Source of the DNA: an uncultured bacterium
GTDB lineage: Bacteria; Verrucomicrobiota; Lentisphaeria; Victivallales; UBA1829
Length of the DNA stretch: 64,000 nt
Assembly: GCA_902780135.1 (NCBI GenBank)
Contig: CACZEK010000005.1
Location: 62,001 to 126,000, forward strand
Direction: 5' to 3'
Under the pieces are notes generated by a model, which was not told the DNA's origin, searched no databases, and saw only the letters and a list, made by a program, of their open reading frames with translations. Shown piece by piece: positions 55,402 through 63,513 of this stretch. How positions within the stretch are numbered: position 1 is the first letter of the stretch; each line of letters opens with the position of its first letter. The translations under genes and the position numbers were made by a program.

Positions 55402-56157
55402 ATGGATGCAGGCAGAATACTGGACGGTTTCCGGGACGGAAACATCACCCGCGAACAGGCGCTTGATCTTCTAAACAAGCTCCCGTACGAGGACATCGGC
55501 TTCGCAAAGCTCGACCACCACAGGCAGCTCCGCCGCGGCGGCATCGAAACCGTGTTCTGCGCCGGAAAGACCGCGGAACAGGTCCGCGGCATCTTCGAAC
55601 GCTTCATCGCGGCGGGCGGAAACGCCATCGGGACGCGCGCCACGCCCGAACAGGCGGAGCATGTCCGCGCCGCCCTGCCCGACGTGCAGTACGACCCCGT
55701 CTCGCGCCTGCTGTATTTCATCGGCGCTCCGAAGCCCCGGACCGGATGCGTGGCGGTCTGCACGGGCGGCACCTCCGACCAGCCCGTCGCCGAGGAGGCC
55801 GCGAAGACCGCGGAGTTCTTCGGCGCGAACGTGAAACGCTTCTACGACGTCGGCGTCGCCGGCATCCACCGTCTGTTCGCCTGTCTGGACGAGATCCGCA
55901 CCGCGAACGCCGTGGTCGCCGTCGCCGGGATGGAGGGCGCGCTCGGCGGCGTGATCGCCGGACTCGTTTCCGTGCCGGTCGTCGCCGTGCCGACCTCCGT
56001 CGGCTACGGCGCGTCCTTCGGCGGCATCGCCCCGCTCCTGACCATGCTCAATTCCTGCGCCGAAGGCATGTCCGTCGTGAACATCGACAACGGATTCGGC
56101 GCGGGCTATCTCGCCGCACGCATCAATTCGCTCGTCACACAGGGGAACAGGCCATGA
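55402..56157 (+). CDS. larB: Nickel-pincer cofactor synthesis carboxylase/hydrolase LarB
   Basis: LarB carboxylates and hydrolyses nicotinic acid adenine dinucleotide, the first step to the nickel-pincer nucleotide of lactate racemase. The 251-residue protein has a helical N-terminal part and a PurE-like domain: CVAVCTGGTSDQPVAEEAA, DVGVAGIHRLF, VVAVAGMEGALGGVIAGL and VAVPTSVGYGASFGGIAPLL. The stop overlaps the larC start as ATGA. Confidence 0.95.
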   Translation: MDAGRILDGFRDGNITREQALDLLNKLPYEDIGFAKLDHHRQLRRGGIETVFCAGKTAEQVRGIFERFIAAGGNAIGTRATPEQAEHVRAALPDVQYDPVSRLLYFIGAPKPRTGCVAVCTGGTSDQPVAEEAAKTAEFFGANVKRFYDVGVAGIHRLFACLDEIRTANAVVAVAGMEGALGGVIAGLVSVPVVAVPTSVGYGASFGGIAPLLTMLNSCAEGMSVVNIDNGFGAGYLAARINSLVTQGNRP

Positions 56158-57485
56158 GCAAATCCATTCTCTATCTCGAATGCGCCACCGGCATCAGCGG
56201 CGACATGACCGTGGCCGCGCTGCTCGACCTCGGCGCTTCCAGGATCAAACTGCTCGCCGCGCTCGACAGCCTGAACGTGGAGGGGTATTCCGTCACGGTC
56301 AGACGCGCCAATTCGCACGGCGTCGACGCATGCTCCTTCGACGTGGAGCTGGAGCACGAACACGAACATGAACATGAACACGGGCATCATCACGGACACG
56401 AAGCGCTCGAGCACGAGCATCCGCACGAAGCCCATGAGCATGACCACGACCACGAACACCTCCACGAACACGGGCATCACGGGCATGACCACCATCATCC
56501 GCACGTGCACCGCAACCTCGCGGACGTTACCGCCATCCTGAACAGCGGCGACCTCACCCCGCACGCCCGCGAGCTCGCGCTGAAGATCTTCGGCATCGTC
56601 GCCGAGGCGGAATCCAAGGCGCACGGCAAACCCGTCGAAGAGGTGCATTTCCACGAAGTCGGCGCGATCGACTCCATCGTGGACATCGCCGCCGCCGCGG
56701 TCTGCCTCGACGACCTCGGGATCGACGACGTCGTCGTGACGGCGCTGAGCGAGGGGACCGGATTCGTCGAATGCCAGCACGGACTGCTCCCGGTCCCCGT
56801 CCCAGCCGTGGCGAACATCGCCGCCGCAAGCGGCCTCCCGCTCCGCATCCTCCCCTCCGTGCAGGGCGAAATGGTCACGCCGACGGGCGCGGCGATCGCT
56901 GCCGCGGTCCGGACGCGGTCCGCCCTGCCGGAAACCTTCACGGTCAAAAAGATCGGCCTCGGCGCGGGCAAGCGCGACTTCGGCATGCCGAACGTCCTGC
57001 GGGCGATGCTGATCGAGGAGACCGCCGCCGCGGACGCGCCGCCCGCCGAGATCACGATCCTGGAGACGAACATCGACGACTCCACGGGCGAGACGCTCGG
57101 ACTGGCGATGGAATCCCTGCTCGGAGCGGGCGCGCTGGACGTGCATTACGTCCCGGTCTTCATGAAGAAAAACCGTCCCGCGTGGCTCCTGCGCGTGATC
57201 TGCCGCGAGGCGGACGCCCCCGCGATGGAACGCGTCATCTTCACGGAGACGAGCTCCATCGGCGTCCGCAGGCTCCGGGCGGGGCGCACCTGCCTCTCCC
57301 GCACGGTCGTGGACGTGGCGCTGCCCGCCGGCACGGCGAAAGTCAAGAAATGCAGCTTCGACGGGCAGACGTTCTACTACCCCGAATACGAGAGCGTCAA
57401 GGCGCTTGCCGCCGCTTCCGGCGTGCCGTTCGCCGACCTCTTCCGCGACGCCGCGGAGACCGCGAGGGCAAACGATGAAAGATAA
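56154..57485 (+). CDS. larC: Nickel-pincer cofactor nickel insertase LarC
   Basis: LarC inserts nickel into the pincer precursor. The 443-residue protein is encoded in one uninterrupted frame, whereas in Lactiplantibacillus plantarum a programmed frameshift joins two parts. Motifs are LECATGISGDMTVAALLDLG, HFHEVGAIDSIVDIAAAAV, MVTPTGAAIAAAV and ETNIDDSTGETLG. Residues 68-119 form a His-rich insert with 27 His in 52 residues (EHEHEHEHGHHHGH and similar), likely nickel storage or delivery. The start at 56154 overlaps larB; longer frames upstream are not real starts. The end overlaps larE by 11 bp. Confidence 0.95.
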   Translation: MSKSILYLECATGISGDMTVAALLDLGASRIKLLAALDSLNVEGYSVTVRRANSHGVDACSFDVELEHEHEHEHEHGHHHGHEALEHEHPHEAHEHDHDHEHLHEHGHHGHDHHHPHVHRNLADVTAILNSGDLTPHARELALKIFGIVAEAESKAHGKPVEEVHFHEVGAIDSIVDIAAAAVCLDDLGIDDVVVTALSEGTGFVECQHGLLPVPVPAVANIAAASGLPLRILPSVQGEMVTPTGAAIAAAVRTRSALPETFTVKKIGLGAGKRDFGMPNVLRAMLIEETAAADAPPAEITILETNIDDSTGETLGLAMESLLGAGALDVHYVPVFMKKNRPAWLLRVICREADAPAMERVIFTETSSIGVRRLRAGRTCLSRTVVDVALPAGTAKVKKCSFDGQTFYYPEYESVKALAAASGVPFADLFRDAAETARANDER

Positions 57486-58296
57486 GCTGAACGAACTCCG
57501 GCGGATGCTGGAGGGCCTGAGCGCGGACGGCGTCTGCGCGGCATTTTCCGGCGGCGTCGACAGCAGCCTGCTCCTGACCGTCCTTTCCGAGATCCGCACC
57601 CGCAAACCGTTTCCCCTGCTCGCCGTCGTCTTCTCCACGGCGTTCCACACCGCCGAGGAGACCGCCTCCGCGATGAAACAGGCGGAGGAGCTGGGCGTGC
57701 CGTCGCTGCTCGTCGAACGCGACGTGCTGTCCGATCCGGTCCTGCGTGAGAATCCGAAGGACCGCTGCTATCACTGCAAGCGCGCGCTTTTCTCCGAGAT
57801 GAAGCGCATCGCGGAGGAGCGCGGCATCAAAAACCTCGTGGACGGCACCAACGCCGACGACACGCGCGTATACCGGCCCGGACGCAAGGCGCTGGAGGAG
57901 CTCGGCGTGCTGAGCCCGCTCGCGCTCTGCGGGTTCACGAAGGACGGGATCCGCGCCGCCGCCCGCGAACTCCTGGTCCCGGTCGCGGACAAGCCGTCCA
58001 CGCCGTGCCTCGCGACGCGGTTCCCCTACGGCACGGTCATGACGGACGGGGCTTTGCGCCGCGTGGAGCGCGGCGAGGCGGTCCTGCGCGAGTTCGGGCT
58101 GAAGGTGGTGCGCCTGCGCGTCCACGGCGACGTCGCGCGCATTGAGACCGATCCCGAGGGCTTCGACCTGGCATCCGCCGGACGTTTCGAGATCGCGTTC
58201 GCGCTCCGCAAAGAGGGGTTCCCCTACGTCACGCTCGACCTGGAGGGATTCCGGTCCGGCAGCATGGACGAACCCCTCCTCGCGAAACAGTCCTGA
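57475..58296 (+). CDS. larE: ATP-dependent sulfur transferase LarE
   Basis: LarE adds sulfur to the pincer precursor. The 273-residue PP-loop protein has AAFSGGVDSSLLLTVL near residue 22, NPKDRCYHCKRALFSEM near 96 and the KPSTPCLATRFPYG segment near 165, whose Cys corresponds to the sulfur-donating Cys of LarE as far as I can align by eye. Two extra Cys in RCYHC leave open whether it uses a sacrificial Cys or an iron-sulfur cluster. larA, the racemase itself, is not in the window. Confidence 0.95.
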   Translation: MKDKLNELRRMLEGLSADGVCAAFSGGVDSSLLLTVLSEIRTRKPFPLLAVVFSTAFHTAEETASAMKQAEELGVPSLLVERDVLSDPVLRENPKDRCYHCKRALFSEMKRIAEERGIKNLVDGTNADDTRVYRPGRKALEELGVLSPLALCGFTKDGIRAAARELLVPVADKPSTPCLATRFPYGTVMTDGALRRVERGEAVLREFGLKVVRLRVHGDVARIETDPEGFDLASAGRFEIAFALRKEGFPYVTLDLEGFRSGSMDEPLLAKQS

Positions 58297-58383: not shown

Positions 58384-58635
58384 TCACTCCGCCAGTTTGT
58401 GCTTCCACTTCTCCCGGAACGCGTCGCTCAGGTCCTGATACCGGAAGATGTTCTTCCAGTTCACCCGGTCGGCGAACTTTTCGATGAAGGGTTCGCTGAG
58501 CGTCTGGTATTGCGACACCAGGTCCCAGTCCATCGCGTCCTTGTGGTATTCGATGTATTCCTCGCAGTGGATGTGGTATTTGGAGTCGATATACCAGAAG
58601 TCGGTCGGTTCGACCGCCGCATCGTTCTCGTTCAT
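58384..58635 (-). CDS. Small protein with two 23-residue aromatic repeats
   Basis: This 83-residue protein is acidic at its N-terminus. Residues 36-58 (DWDLVSQYQTLSEPFIEKF...) and 59-81 (NWKNIFRYQDLSDAFREKW...) form a clear tandem repeat with W, YQ, LS and F conserved. I recall similar W-YQ-LSE-F repeats in some phage and giant-virus proteins, but not a function. It is supported as a real gene by AAGGAG 8 bases before its ATG and by the best promoter match of the window. It is transcribed divergently from the AIDA-type gene. Confidence 0.8.
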   Translation of the reverse strand: MNENDAAVEPTDFWYIDSKYHIHCEEYIEYHKDAMDWDLVSQYQTLSEPFIEKFADRVNWKNIFRYQDLSDAFREKWKHKLAE

Positions 58636-58667
58636 TCCGCATGCTCCTTTCGCCGGTTTTTTGCAAT

Positions 58668-58696
58668 ACTATACACGACAAAGGCCGCGCTGTCAA
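58668..58696 (-). promoter_or_regulatory. Strong promoter of the 83-residue protein gene
   Basis: On the minus strand TTGACA (58696-58691, perfect), 17-bp spacer, TATAGT (58673-58668, one mismatch), about 33 bp before the ATG. Confidence 0.75.
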
Positions 58697-58772
58697 GCGG
58701 CTTCCGCCGCGCGGAACGGGAATCGGCGGAGAAAAGGGGCTTCCCAAAATAACAAAAAAAAGGAAACCGGAC

Positions 58773-58801
58773 TTGCAAACGGATGAAACGGATGCTATTG
58801 T
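58773..58801 (+). promoter_or_regulatory. Promoter of the AIDA-type repeat protein gene
   Basis: TTGCAA (58773-58778), 17-bp spacer, TATTGT (58796-58801). The leader of about 80 bases contains a GC-rich hairpin near 58832-58853. Confidence 0.5.
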
Positions 58802-58887
58802 ATGATTGACAAACACTGATAAAACAAAAAGAGCCGCGTCCGCACGGGCGGGGCTGCTTCGAATCCAACCGGAAAGGGCGTTCCATC

Positions 58888-61800
58888 ATGTACGAGGAGA
58901 TTATCGTATCCAAAGGCAAAACCAGCAGCGGACTGACGCTGTTGCGCGACTCGATGTTCATCCTGAACGGCGGCAAGGCGACGGAAACCACGGTCAGCAG
59001 CGGCGGAAGCATGTATGTTTCCAAGGGCGGCAAGGCAACGGAAACCACGGTCAGCAGCGGCGGAAGCATGGTCGTCTCCGGCGGCACGGTCAACAGCGCC
59101 ACGATCGCCTCCTCAGGATGCTTCGTCATGAGCGGCGGCACGATCAACAACCTCACACTCCAAAACGCCAGCGGCTGGACGTCCTCCGGCGGCGGCACGA
59201 TCAATAACCTCACGCTCAGTGGCGGCTTTATTTCTTTCTCCAGCGGCACGATCAACCGCGCCGAGGCAGATCATGGCAACCTTTATGTCTACTTTGGCGG
59301 CAAACTGAACAGCGCCACATTCAACGGCGGCACCCTGAGCATCAGCAGCAACTGCACGGCGAACAACATCAAGCTGGAAAACAGCGCCTACATAAACGTC
59401 TACCGCAGCGGGAAAGCCAGCAATGTCATGCTTGAGGGCGGAGCCGGCGCATACGTTGACGACGGCGCCGTCGTGACCAACCTCACGCTCACAGGCGGCG
59501 ATGCCGATCCCGAAGAAGGCCAGTATGCCGCCCGTCTGGTGAACTACGGTACGGTAAAGGGACTCAAGATCGGCTCCGGCACGAGCGTCGGCCTCAGTTC
59601 GGGCTGCACGGTTACGAAACTCACCTGGACGCCGGGCGACGGCGTAGTCAATATCGGGGACGTCTCACTCTCGTTCACCAGCAAGTATTCCGGCGTTTAC
59701 ATCGGTTCGGGCGGCACGCATGTTTCCCAAACGAAAGAGTTTCTTGGCTCGTCTTTCGCGAGAGGCGAATCCGCGTATGTCATGAAAGGCGGATACGCGA
59801 GCGGGAACGAACTCAAGGGGGGAAAGATGGAAGTCTGGAGCGGCGGCAAGGCCGAAAACATCTTCATCGGCAACAACGGTTACAACTCCAGTTGGGCGGA
59901 CGTCTCCAGCGGCGGCACAATGACCTCCGCACGGGTGTCGGGAGGCTTCCTGAATCTCGAAGGCGGCTTTGTGGGCGACACCGTCATCGGCAACGACGGT
60001 GAATTATACGTTTCGGGCGGTTCGGCATCCGGCATCAGTGTCGAGGCGGGCGGGATGCTTCTCCTCTACAGCTGCACGGCGACGGACGTCGATTGGACGC
60101 CTTTCGTCGGCTACCTCGGTATCGGCGATGACGCGCATGTCACGTTCAAGACCGCGATCACGGGCATCTACGCGGGCGACAGCGAGACCCTTCTTTTCCA
60201 CACGGATGAGACTCTGGAGAACTGGTCCGTAAACCAGGGCAGCAATACACTCTATGTGATGTCCGGCGGCGAGGCGGAGAATACCGCGGTCCTCGGCAGC
60301 GGGGGAATGTATGTCTTCGGCGGTTCGGCGTCCGCCACGACCATCGGCGGCGAGCACGGAGAGGGGTACGGAAATATGCTTCTCTACGATGATGCGTATG
60401 CGGTTGATACGGTTGTCCATTCCGGCGGACAGTACGTCTACAGCGGCGGCCTGGCGGTTTCCACGACTGTCGGTTCCATGGGCTACATGTACATCTTCAA
60501 CAGCGGCACGGCGGAGGACGTCATGATCTCCTCAGGCGCCAGCATGGCAGTCTGCAACGGCGGCAAGGCTGCCGGCGTCAAGATTCAGTCCCGCGCGTCC
60601 GTGTATCTGGAAGGCGGCACGGCGGCGGACGTCACCGCGGCAAGCGGCTATTACAGACAGGGCGGATCCGTCTTCGTCTCCAGCGGCGCGGTCGTCTCCG
60701 ACCTTCAGCTGGAATACGGCGCGGTCCTTTACGTCGAAAAAGGCGCGAAGGTCACGAATGTCTCGAGCAGCTACGGATCCCTTATCCGCGCGGAAAAGGG
60801 CGCGAGCGTGAAGAAGATCAAGGCGGTCAAGGCGGTGTCGCCGGACAGCGACCACGACGAAAAGAACGGCTGGGAGGACAAGAAGAATAAGACGATCAAC
60901 AGTTATATTCTGAACTCCGAAGCTTTCGTGATAGACGACAATTACTGGTCCTGTCTTCCGTTTGACGAGAAGCCCACGACGTACGACTCCTATTCAGCCT
61001 ACGTCGGCTATACCGACGAGGCCGACTTCCTGAAGGTCCGTCTGGAAGATGCGGCGAAACTGAGCTTCAGCGTCTCCGCCACGGACGAATCGAAGTTCAC
61101 GGTCTGGAAGTACGACGAAACGAAGAAAAAACTGGTCTCGCTTCAGGCAAGCACGCTCAAAAAGAGCGAATTCAGCGGCGCAAAATCGAAGTCGAAATCC
61201 TCGTCGGACACGTATTATTGGGCGGAGACGCCGGATCTCCTGCTGGGTGCGGGCGAGTATTTCCTCTCCATGGAATCCACGAACGCCGCGAAGGGCGGAA
61301 ACGCGTACTATGACGCGTATCTCGGCAACAGGGTGATCTTCGACCATGGCGACAACAGGGACGACGACGGAAATCTCCTCCGCGAAAAGCTCCATTCCGA
61401 TGATCCGGAGGTCCGCGCAGACTACGAGAAGTACGACGTCGGCACGCTGGACGGGTCAAACGAATACATCATGGACGACTGGGTCGGCTACGGCGACGAG
61501 ATCGACTTCCGGAGATTCTCGCTCGCCCAGAGCGCGAATCTTTCGTTCAACGTCAATTCCGGCGACGCCTCGAAGTTCACGGTCTGGAAGTACGACGAAA
61601 AGAAGAAAAAACTGGTCTCGGTCCAGACGACGAAGCTCAAGGAATACAAATACAAGGAAATGAAGATGTCGGCGAATTACCAGGCGACGACGAAGGAGCT
61701 CCTGCTCGGACCCGGCGAATACTTCTTCTCCATGGAGTCCACGAACGCCGCGAAGGGCGCGGACGCGTACTACAGCGTGTACCTCAATCCGGACAGCGAT

Positions 61801-61959
61801 TTCGCGACGTATGCCAAGGCGTCCGAGAAAAGCGCGCTCGACATGCCCGCCGGCTGCCTGAGCCCCGGCTTCGGCACGGATACGCTCTCCTGCGCCTCCG
61901 TCGCCGCGCCCGCGGAACAGGACGGCGGATCCGTGCGGCAGCTTCTCACGCTGGCGTGA
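58888..61959 (+). CDS. AIDA-type repeat protein with two C-terminal beta domains
   Basis: The 1023-residue protein starts directly with MYEEIIVSKGKTSSGLTLL and then has about 600 residues of degenerate 19-20 residue repeats of the SGGxAxxTxVxSGGxMxV kind, predicted to form a beta-solenoid as in AIDA-I-type adhesins. After a Lys-rich hinge (about 645) come two related domains (about 695-810 and 865-975), each with SKFTVWKYDE, then LLLG-GEYF-SMESTNAAKG; these look like PPC-type beta sandwiches. There is no visible signal peptide, no autotransporter barrel and no sorting tail. GGAAAGG precedes the ATG. A surface or secreted adhesin is the natural guess, but the export route is unknown. Confidence 0.82.
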   Translation: MYEEIIVSKGKTSSGLTLLRDSMFILNGGKATETTVSSGGSMYVSKGGKATETTVSSGGSMVVSGGTVNSATIASSGCFVMSGGTINNLTLQNASGWTSSGGGTINNLTLSGGFISFSSGTINRAEADHGNLYVYFGGKLNSATFNGGTLSISSNCTANNIKLENSAYINVYRSGKASNVMLEGGAGAYVDDGAVVTNLTLTGGDADPEEGQYAARLVNYGTVKGLKIGSGTSVGLSSGCTVTKLTWTPGDGVVNIGDVSLSFTSKYSGVYIGSGGTHVSQTKEFLGSSFARGESAYVMKGGYASGNELKGGKMEVWSGGKAENIFIGNNGYNSSWADVSSGGTMTSARVSGGFLNLEGGFVGDTVIGNDGELYVSGGSASGISVEAGGMLLLYSCTATDVDWTPFVGYLGIGDDAHVTFKTAITGIYAGDSETLLFHTDETLENWSVNQGSNTLYVMSGGEAENTAVLGSGGMYVFGGSASATTIGGEHGEGYGNMLLYDDAYAVDTVVHSGGQYVYSGGLAVSTTVGSMGYMYIFNSGTAEDVMISSGASMAVCNGGKAAGVKIQSRASVYLEGGTAADVTAASGYYRQGGSVFVSSGAVVSDLQLEYGAVLYVEKGAKVTNVSSSYGSLIRAEKGASVKKIKAVKAVSPDSDHDEKNGWEDKKNKTINSYILNSEAFVIDDNYWSCLPFDEKPTTYDSYSAYVGYTDEADFLKVRLEDAAKLSFSVSATDESKFTVWKYDETKKKLVSLQASTLKKSEFSGAKSKSKSSSDTYYWAETPDLLLGAGEYFLSMESTNAAKGGNAYYDAYLGNRVIFDHGDNRDDDGNLLREKLHSDDPEVRADYEKYDVGTLDGSNEYIMDDWVGYGDEIDFRRFSLAQSANLSFNVNSGDASKFTVWKYDEKKKKLVSVQTTKLKEYKYKEMKMSANYQATTKELLLGPGEYFFSMESTNAAKGADAYYSVYLNPDSDFATYAKASEKSALDMPAGCLSPGFGTDTLSCASVAAPAEQDGGSVRQLLTLA
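58971..59070 (+). repeat. 57-bp-period DNA repeat inside the AIDA-type gene
   Basis: Bases 58971-59013 and 59028-59070 are 43-bp copies with one mismatch, so one 19-residue unit was duplicated recently. A second near-identical pair occurs in the C-terminal domains (near 61089 and 61570). Confidence 0.85.
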
Positions 61960-61999: not shown

Positions 62000-62035
62000 G
62001 CCGCCCGGCGATACGATCGCATCGGGCGGCTTTTT
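62000..62035 (+). terminator. Rho-independent terminator of the AIDA-type gene
   Basis: GCCGCCCG (62000-62007) pairs with CGGGCGGC (62023-62030), with an inner GCGAT/ATCGC stem and a 2-base bulge, followed by TTTTT. Confidence 0.9.
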
Positions 62036-62101: not shown

Positions 62102-62902
62102 TCACTCGACCGGGCAGTCGAAATAGGTGTCCGGGTACGGCTCGTCGGCGAGCGTGAAGTGCCACCACTCCGTATCAACAGGCTTGAACCCGTGTTTCAG
62201 CATGACGGAACGGAGCAGCATGCGGTTGCGGAACTGCGCGGCGGTGATCCTGCGGCTGTCCGGCGTGCCGACGGGGAATTCGCCCGTGTATTCCATCGTT
62301 TCGGGGTCGCCGCCCCAGTCGGGATGGCTTTCCGGTCCGAACCAGTCAAACGTCCCGCCCATATCGACCTCCTTTTCCGTGTTCATGTCAAAGAGCGTCA
62401 GGTCCACAGTACTGCCGCGGCTGTGGCCGGATTTCGCGGCGATGTATCCCTGCGGAAAGAGCACGGTCTTGTCGAGGTCCGGGTAGAAATACGCCTTCAT
62501 CCTCGTGTCGTCCGTCCGTTTCGCCCATTCGACGAAGTGGTCGACGGCGCGCTGCGGGCGGTACGAATCGTAGATCTTCAGGCGGTAGCCCATCGGAAGC
62601 AGTTCGTCGCTCACCGCCTTCAACGCTTCGGCTGCCTCAATGGTGAGCATGGGCGTGGGGCGTTCATAGCCGCGGATGCGGTCCCCGATGAAGTTGTAGG
62701 TGGAGTAGTAGCGGACTTCCAAAATCGCGTCCGGGATGGCTTCCGCGACATGCACGAATCCCGGCGGGAGCGAATCCGCGCAGTCCGTCCGGCAGGCGGA
62801 AACGGCAAGCACGGCCGCCGCGGCCGCGAAAACGAGCAGGCATTTTTTCAGGGACGCAAGACGACTGCAAACGGGAAGCGGTCGGCGGGGAGGCTTTTTC
62901 AT
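62102..62902 (-). CDS. D-alanyl-D-alanine dipeptidase (VanX/DdpX-like) lipoprotein
   Basis: The 266-residue product has a lipoprotein-type signal (AAAAAVLAVSAC, Cys near residue 37) and an M15D peptidase domain. Visible motifs are VRYYSTYNFIGDRI, YDSYRPQRAVDHFVEWA, the zinc motif SGHSRGSTVDLTLFDM (His and Asp) and DTEWWHF (catalytic Glu and zinc His). It would hydrolyse D-Ala-D-Ala in the envelope; no vanH or vanA ligase is nearby, so peptidoglycan turnover is more likely than vancomycin resistance. The ATG at 62902 overlaps the GNAT stop and has AAAGG upstream; an ATG at 62932 is possible but lies within the GNAT gene. Confidence 0.92.
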   Translation of the reverse strand: MKKPPRRPLPVCSRLASLKKCLLVFAAAAAVLAVSACRTDCADSLPPGFVHVAEAIPDAILEVRYYSTYNFIGDRIRGYERPTPMLTIEAAEALKAVSDELLPMGYRLKIYDSYRPQRAVDHFVEWAKRTDDTRMKAYFYPDLDKTVLFPQGYIAAKSGHSRGSTVDLTLFDMNTEKEVDMGGTFDWFGPESHPDWGGDPETMEYTGEFPVGTPDSRRITAAQFRNRMLLRSVMLKHGFKPVDTEWWHFTLADEPYPDTYFDCPVE

Positions 62903-63513
62903 GTTCGGACCTTTCTTTGTTTTTCCGTCCATTCCTGTTTCAGGATGGCGTACTGCAGCGTGTTTTCGTAGACCGGATTCCCCCCGGTGTCCGTGACGAA
63001 CGACACGAACTCCAGGAACAGCCCTTCGCGGCGCATCCCGAGTTTCTCGCAGAGGTGTTGGCTACGCACGTTGTAGTCCTCCGTGTAGGCGAAGATCCGG
63101 CGGACGCCCTTCCGGCCGAAAAGATAGTCGAAAAAGGCGCGCGCCGCCTCGTATGCGTAGCCCCTGCCCCGGTACGCGGCGTTCAGCATCCAGCACGGGC
63201 TGAACGTGTCCGGCAAAGGCAAATCTTTCCCTTTTCCCGCCGCCGCCCGCGAACACAGCATCGGCGGTTCGTAGGGCGACGGTTCCGCGTCGATCTCCCC
63301 GATCACCTTGCCGGATTCCTTCAGCGTGATCGCGAAACAATATTCCGTATCGGCGCTTCGCTTCGCCATTTCCGCCCGCGCTTCGTCGAGCGTGTCAAGT
63401 TTCAGGCTGACGAAGCAGTTCGGCGCGGGCTCGCGCAGGTATTCCAGGACGTCCGAAGCATCGCTTTCGCGGAACGGGCGCAGGATCAGTCTTTCGGTCT
63501 CGATCGTGCTCAT
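62899..63513 (-). CDS. GNAT family N-acetyltransferase (RimJ/RimL-like)
   Basis: The 204-residue protein has the RimJ-like start TERLILRPFRESDASDVLEYL, acetyl-CoA-binding MLNAAYRGRGYAYEAARAFF, and the end segment VRRIFAYTEDYNVRSQHLCEKLGM followed by REGLF. It acetylates an unknown amine, perhaps a ribosomal protein or small molecule. Both ends overlap neighbours by 4 bp (TfoX-N gene upstream, VanX-like gene downstream). Confidence 0.9.
   Translation of the reverse strand: MSTIETERLILRPFRESDASDVLEYLREPAPNCFVSLKLDTLDEARAEMAKRSADTEYCFAITLKESGKVIGEIDAEPSPYEPPMLCSRAAAGKGKDLPLPDTFSPCWMLNAAYRGRGYAYEAARAFFDYLFGRKGVRRIFAYTEDYNVRSQHLCEKLGMRREGLFLEFVSFVTDTGGNPVYENTLQYAILKQEWTEKQRKVRT

Follow-up and report, generated by a model that had tools for sequence, protein, structure and literature searches.

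The closest described counterparts of the protein considered here are the type Va autotransporters AIDA-I, TibA and Ag43, which have passengers of strand-loop-strand repeats and whose class has two defining features, a Sec signal and a barrel. In E. coli, AIDA-I and TibA are modified by heptosyltransferases of the TibC/Aah family (BAHT). A second point of reference is given by HlyA and the RTX adhesins, type I secreted proteins without an N-terminal signal and with an acidic C-terminal tail that has a hydrophobic end. Linkage of the gene of a type I substrate to its exporter is common, not obligatory. Within the window, a stretch of 64,000 nucleotides from an uncultured bacterium of the class Lentisphaeria, a gene was found whose product has the repeats of the first group together with the signal-less start of the second.

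The gene and its repeat passenger

The features of the locus are as follows (window coordinates):

58636..58887, no strand assigned: divergent intergenic region, which must hold the promoter; no plus-strand consensus site
58807..58809, plus: in-frame stop 5' of the start, limiting any N-terminal extension to 26 codons
58888..61959, plus: gene of the AIDA-repeat protein, ATG start, 1023 aa, without signal peptide and without barrel
58900..60810, plus: AIDA / strand-loop-strand repeat passenger, residues ~5-640 (Pfam, TIGR04415 and structure match; limits approximate)
60916..61332, plus: C-terminal domain 1, residues 677-815, perhaps a beta-sandwich of the PPC type (A1-profile match; domain comparison)
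61462..61803, plus: C-terminal domain 2, residues 859-972 (domain comparison; structure model and fold match)
61804..61956, plus: C-terminal tail, residues 973-1023, which may serve as a type I secretion signal that is not cleaved off (paralogue comparison)
61831-61848, plus: SALDMP motif within the tail (tail comparison)
62000..62035, plus: terminator hairpin plus UUUUU (hairpin 62000-62030 by folding)

The Pfam profile PF16168 (AIDA) matched the protein in five stretches (79.9 bits, cut-off 27) and TIGR04415, a heptosylation-target model of strand-loop-strand acceptor repeats, in nine (87.3 bits, cut-off 30). The closest solved structure by sequence was the TibA passenger (4q1q, E 3.8e-20). 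The passenger begins at about residue 5, and the N-terminus of the chain matches the start of a paralogue (MYEEIIVSKGKTSSGLTL / MDEIIDVLNGETSSGLTL). A first-pass annotation of this DNA had described AIDA-type repeats like those of autotransporter passengers in a chain that starts directly with repeats and has neither a signal peptide nor an outer-membrane barrel, and this observation is confirmed. Its description of the protein as giant holds only in relative terms, as a paralogue of more than 8107 aa exists, against 1023 aa here.

No Sec signal peptide was found at the N-terminus on inspection of the sequence and of the upstream frame. The frame is 1049 aa long from stop to stop, and the 26 open codons upstream of the ATG contain no hydrophobic stretch, so that no hidden signal peptide fits; an upstream in-frame start with a signal peptide, which the annotation had named as the observation that would overturn its reading, is thereby ruled out. 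Pfam and NCBIfam profile searches revealed no C-terminal barrel in the protein, and an overlooked barrel was ruled out by a search of the whole 2.84-Mb genome with PF03797, which gave 0 matches. With both defining features tested and found absent, the protein is not an autotransporter. It should also be noted that RTX nonapeptide repeats (PF00353, Ca-binding) were absent among its Pfam matches, and that no type IX sorting-domain model was present among its NCBIfam matches with E up to 1.

The upstream neighbour (58384-58635) reads in the opposite direction, and because of this divergence the gene is probably transcribed separately. This agrees with the promoter of its own that the annotation had assigned to it; the site itself was not located, as a promoter scan of the upstream region gave no plus-strand promoter-like site. 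The strong terminator that it had also proposed is plausible, with a hairpin at 62000-62030 of −25.3 kcal/mol (z −2.2; equalled or bettered by 5 of 200 shuffled sequences) and the UUUUU, but the scan that covered promoters did not list this hairpin. The genes larB, larC and larE, which serve the nickel-pincer cofactor, form a cluster just upstream of the locus (55402-58296). Downstream, a VanX-like D-Ala-D-Ala dipeptidase with a signal sequence is encoded on the minus strand (62102-62932); its score of 196.6 bits falls short of the 320 required for VanX, so it is not VanX itself.

C-terminal domains, paralogues and the common chain end

The two C-terminal domains, which the annotation had called PPC-like, are 53% identical to each other and thus form a related pair, but the PPC label is weakly supported. 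Pfam PPC (PF04151) did not match the protein, one paralogue reached 17.7 bits on this profile (below the cut-off of 25.9), and Pfam gave no consistent domain name for the 13 members matched by the A1 profile of the C-terminal domain. The likeness to PPC lies in a domain predicted to be all-beta and in a fold match of the domain 2 model with a TM of 0.62 by target length, but with an E of 0.005. The structure predicted for domain 2 and tail has a pLDDT of 52.8 (low confidence), so that the fold match carries little weight.

A protein search of the genome with the window protein gave 96 matches. The family members read comprised 13 complete paralogues (804-2367 aa), an ORF of more than 8107 aa, a frame of ~6100 codons, a fragment on contig C22 and a 427-aa ORF on contig C20. 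They include AIDA proteins, proteins consisting mainly of C-terminal domains, and two whose N-terminal part is C39_2-like. The annotation had proposed counting such proteins and aligning their termini as a check for a shared sorting signal, and the complete paralogues do share signal-less starts and ends in LA or IA. A signal peptide was absent in all 13, with a maximum 10-residue hydropathy mean of 1.93 in the first 40 residues compared to 2.78-3.09 in five secreted controls.

Several members deserve description. The largest, at C16:125100-149421 (L040, L041), is an ORF with AIDA repeats that spans 8107 codons or more; its frame is cut by the contig end and, by reading, has Ig-like repeats near its end. 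The ~6100-codon frame on contig C19 (L075/L076) contains the C-terminal domain once, close to the end of the frame; it had no AIDA match among those listed in the own-genome search, and its sequence was read short of its end. An 1850-aa paralogue (L032:7113-12662) consists mainly of C-terminal domains, matching the A1 profile ten times consecutively, and ends in SSIA. Two signal-less proteins (L035:5240-9136 and L039:9162-12551) have, besides the C39_2-like N-terminal part, a CARDB domain and the C-terminal tail of the family, and could possibly be secreted enzymes of the same route. The start of contig C22 (L046:1-600) encodes the C-terminal end of an incomplete member ('..SSALDMPEA...EKQSWQSIAALA'), with its domain part and tail in different frames due to a frameshift or an assembly error.

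The tail of the window protein comprises 51 residues, ends in LLTLA, and is acidic and Ala/Leu-rich with the pattern [AS]LxMP ... LA. The motif [AS]LxMP occurs near the C-terminus of ten of the 13 complete paralogues, and LA or IA forms the chain end in 12. Among 145 background ORFs called with a crude ORF caller, two ended in this way, both of them family members that had passed the filter, which leaves 0/143 for non-family ORFs. The tail is short and variable, the motif is absent in three of the 13 paralogues, and the 427-aa AIDA ORF is without such a tail.

A similar picture was obtained with 61 AIDA- or A1-matched ORFs of other genomes, picked from the profile match lists. None had a convincing signal peptide; two passed a hydropathy of 2.2, one with an open 5' end (L159) and one with an uncertain start (L196), both without a basic n-region. 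LA or IA ended 25 of the 46 relatives' ORFs with a closed 3' end. Same-genus AIDA proteins (L063:14452-17682, L170, L171) end not in the PPC-like pair but in an FG-GAP-like module ('..GRGVDMxWTVIA').

The annotation had suggested that the two C-terminal domains might act as the secretion signal. A C-terminal location of the putative signal is supported, but the domains as an obligatory signal were rejected as a general rule, since signal peptides are likewise missing from relatives' AIDA proteins with a different terminal module (FG-GAP-like '..GRGVDMNWTVIA'; '..SSEKIFED..KGLLA'). Because the last domains differ among relatives, what they share is not the PPC-like pair but the chain end, namely the last ~30-60 residues ([AS]LxMP ... 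LA). The comparison of these ends points to a putative C-terminal secretion signal in the shared tail and not in the two domains, and it is the tail that would act as the signal.

Exporter, heptosyltransferases and their distribution in the class

A single HlyD-type adaptor of the genome scores above the curated cut-off, with 304 bits. It shares an operon on contig C14 with a 910-aa HlyB-like ABC exporter (L056:11894-14626, minus strand), which scored 630 bits on TIGR01846, below the HlyB subfamily cut-off of 725.6. A TolC-like protein on the same contig was also below its cut-off (149 bits against 225). The exporter has a C39 region (Pfam, 42 bits) in which the positions that we take, from the C39 motif, to be the catalytic Cys and His are Thr and Arg; the region thus apparently has no catalytic residues and no leader cut is expected. 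The first ~300 residues of the exporter look like two tandem C39-type domains, both apparently without catalytic residues; the structure model of this part was too weak to confirm them (pLDDT 50.2), and its fold matches again carry little weight.

To place these genes in a wider context, four families were sought in one common set of 118 genomes of the class, with AIDA counted as TIGR04415 with E up to 0.001 and adaptor, barrel and heptosyltransferase as matches over cut-off. AIDA repeats were detected in 46 genomes, the adaptor in 67, the barrel in 14 and the heptosyltransferase in 43. The adaptor was present in 42 of the 46 AIDA genomes compared to 25 of the 72 others (OR 19.7, p 3.6e-10), a co-occurrence which is partly phylogenetic, as shared ancestry inflates the survey figures. 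Stratified by family, the association gave a z of 4.1 (p 0.24 in f1 alone, 0.037 in f2 and 0.0025 in f10), and at genus level the counts were 18/18 versus 12/45. The barrel was found in only two of the 46 AIDA genomes. Of the four AIDA genomes without an adaptor over cut-off, three have a gene for an ABC exporter with 56-95% identity to that described here, and the fourth, G075, does not. The A1 profile found matches in 24 genomes; the adaptor is present in 22 of these, and the two exceptions (G086 and G106) have an ABC exporter.

The export route, for which an unknown one had been the other option of the annotation, therefore need not be unknown, with one HlyB/HlyD-type exporter present and adaptors co-occurring with AIDA class-wide. 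This exporter would be the one to carry the window protein, as judged from its presence and distribution.

Two enzymes of the genome matched TIGR04414 (576.6 and 388.7 bits, cut-off 200). The one on contig C15 (498-aa ORF) aligned with TibC at an E of 2.3e-141. Relative to the catalytic and iron-binding residues listed in PMC4358343, it keeps Asp110, Lys230, Arg286, Trp305 and the iron-finger Cys339/342/358/370, with Thr226 replaced by Ser; the solved TibC chain used in the alignment is the D110A mutant, and its position 110 reads Ala. A gene for a GmhB-like phosphatase lies ~5 kb from this heptosyltransferase.

The window gene is unlinked to the exporter (contig C14) and to the heptosyltransferases (contigs C15 and C10). 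In the rumen relatives RUG10770, RUG12414 and RUG555, a signal-less AIDA protein is encoded directly downstream of hlyD, and the exporters in the named rumen genomes are 95-98% identical. By this identity the source would be a bacterium of the Lentisphaeria/Victivallales, and the window DNA may itself come from a rumen. The gene order in G064 is heptosyltransferase, 1632-aa AIDA protein, small signal-peptide protein, ABC and HlyD; G070 has the same order, but with a 1059-aa signal-less protein ending in '..SSERIFENNNKRGTLA' in place of the AIDA protein. In G113 the order is ABC, HlyD, heptosyltransferase. An exporter cluster was found at three of the 51 heptosyltransferase loci, several of the remainder being cut by contig ends, and an AIDA gene adjoins one of the 29 exporter loci, a number that includes the own locus but leaves out the named relatives. 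Gene clustering thus carries information without being general, and the window gene shows none of it.

Proposed export route and comparison with described systems

It is considered probable that the window protein is a type I-exported AIDA adhesin with probable heptosylation and with its tail as the signal. It would be a passenger of the AIDA-I/TibA family made without a Sec signal or a barrel of its own, with a role in adhesion at the surface or as a secreted protein. The passenger loops would probably be O-heptosylated in the cytoplasm before export by one of the two TibC/Aah-type enzymes. Export would then take place through a type I system of ABC exporter, HlyD-type adaptor and TolC-like duct, with the uncleaved C-terminal tail ([AS]LxMP ... 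LA) as the export signal and with C39 cutting no leader. The full version, in which the entire AIDA/TibC glyco-adhesin module would have been transferred from type V to type I export in the Lentisphaeria, could go either way.

Type I export could also take place without heptosylation of the window protein, with the enzymes acting elsewhere and the AIDA repeats serving as stalk modules. Such a reading would account for heptosyltransferase genes that do not adjoin the window gene, for the nine of 46 AIDA genomes without a heptosyltransferase over cut-off, and for an RfaE-like kinase match that falls below its cut-off (311.9 against 345 bits). It sits poorly with the class survey, where AIDA was found in 37 of the 43 heptosyltransferase genomes (six had no AIDA match) against nine of the 75 others (p 5.6e-16), with the AIDA gene directly 3' at 10 of the 51 heptosyltransferase loci, and with the 87 bits of the window protein on the heptosylation-target model. 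Export without modification is rather unlikely, and the window protein would be heptosylated.

It is quite improbable that an undescribed route, or a type II or type IX system, exports the family while the type I operon transports different substrates. Another route would suit the lack of RTX repeats in the window protein, and also one 92% complete genome (G075) that has many AIDA repeats and a heptosyltransferase with no exporter detected. Type II and type IX cargo, however, needs the Sec signal that the window protein is without, no type IX sorting-domain model was among its NCBIfam matches, and AIDA proteins and exporter co-occur and cluster in relatives. That the protein is not exported at all, being a cytoplasmic or decayed passenger remnant that has lost its signal peptide and barrel, is hardly credible, as all 13 paralogues and dozens of relatives keep long frames, the same signal-less start and similar ends, a pattern which decay would not give.

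The best explanation, a type I-exported and probably heptosylated adhesin, would thus be new in combining a type V passenger and glycosylation module with type I export. Among open-licence papers, none was found that joins AIDA repeats with type I secretion in Lentisphaerae or the PPC domain with type I secretion, and the titles and abstract openings of such papers revealed none that joins heptosyltransferase or BAHT with type I secretion. Those found on strand-loop-strand or AIDA repeats dealt with E. coli, and one found for adhesins and type I secretion dealt with Legionella. The proposal offers a specific and testable way out of the cell for a large group of AIDA proteins in gut Lentisphaeria that have no signal peptide, and suggests that the adhesin-glycosylation module of E. 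coli type V systems may work with type I secretion. If true, a type I system would carry a heavily O-glycosylated beta-solenoid, and BAHT enzymes would not be tied to autotransporters. Type I exporters generally require their substrates to be unfolded. According to PMC8151025, a paper on type V proteins, BAHT enzymes are believed to modify solenoids in a folded or partly folded state, and a mechanistic question is posed by these opposing demands.

Compared to AIDA-I, TibA and Ag43, the window protein has the same strand-loop-strand repeats, as seen in the match to TibA, but differs in having no Sec signal or barrel and another C-terminus, in a genome that is itself barrel-free. It resembles HlyA and the RTX adhesins in its signal-less start, its acidic tail and the HlyB/HlyD-type exporter, which is clustered with such proteins in relatives; unlike them, it has AIDA and not RTX repeats, a tail unlike a curated signal model, and a gene that is unlinked here. 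The two heptosyltransferases are of the TibC and Aah type (577 and 389 bits on TIGR04414), and in some relatives their gene lies directly 5' of an AIDA gene, but their partners here are not autotransporters and some of the enzyme genes lie in type I exporter clusters.
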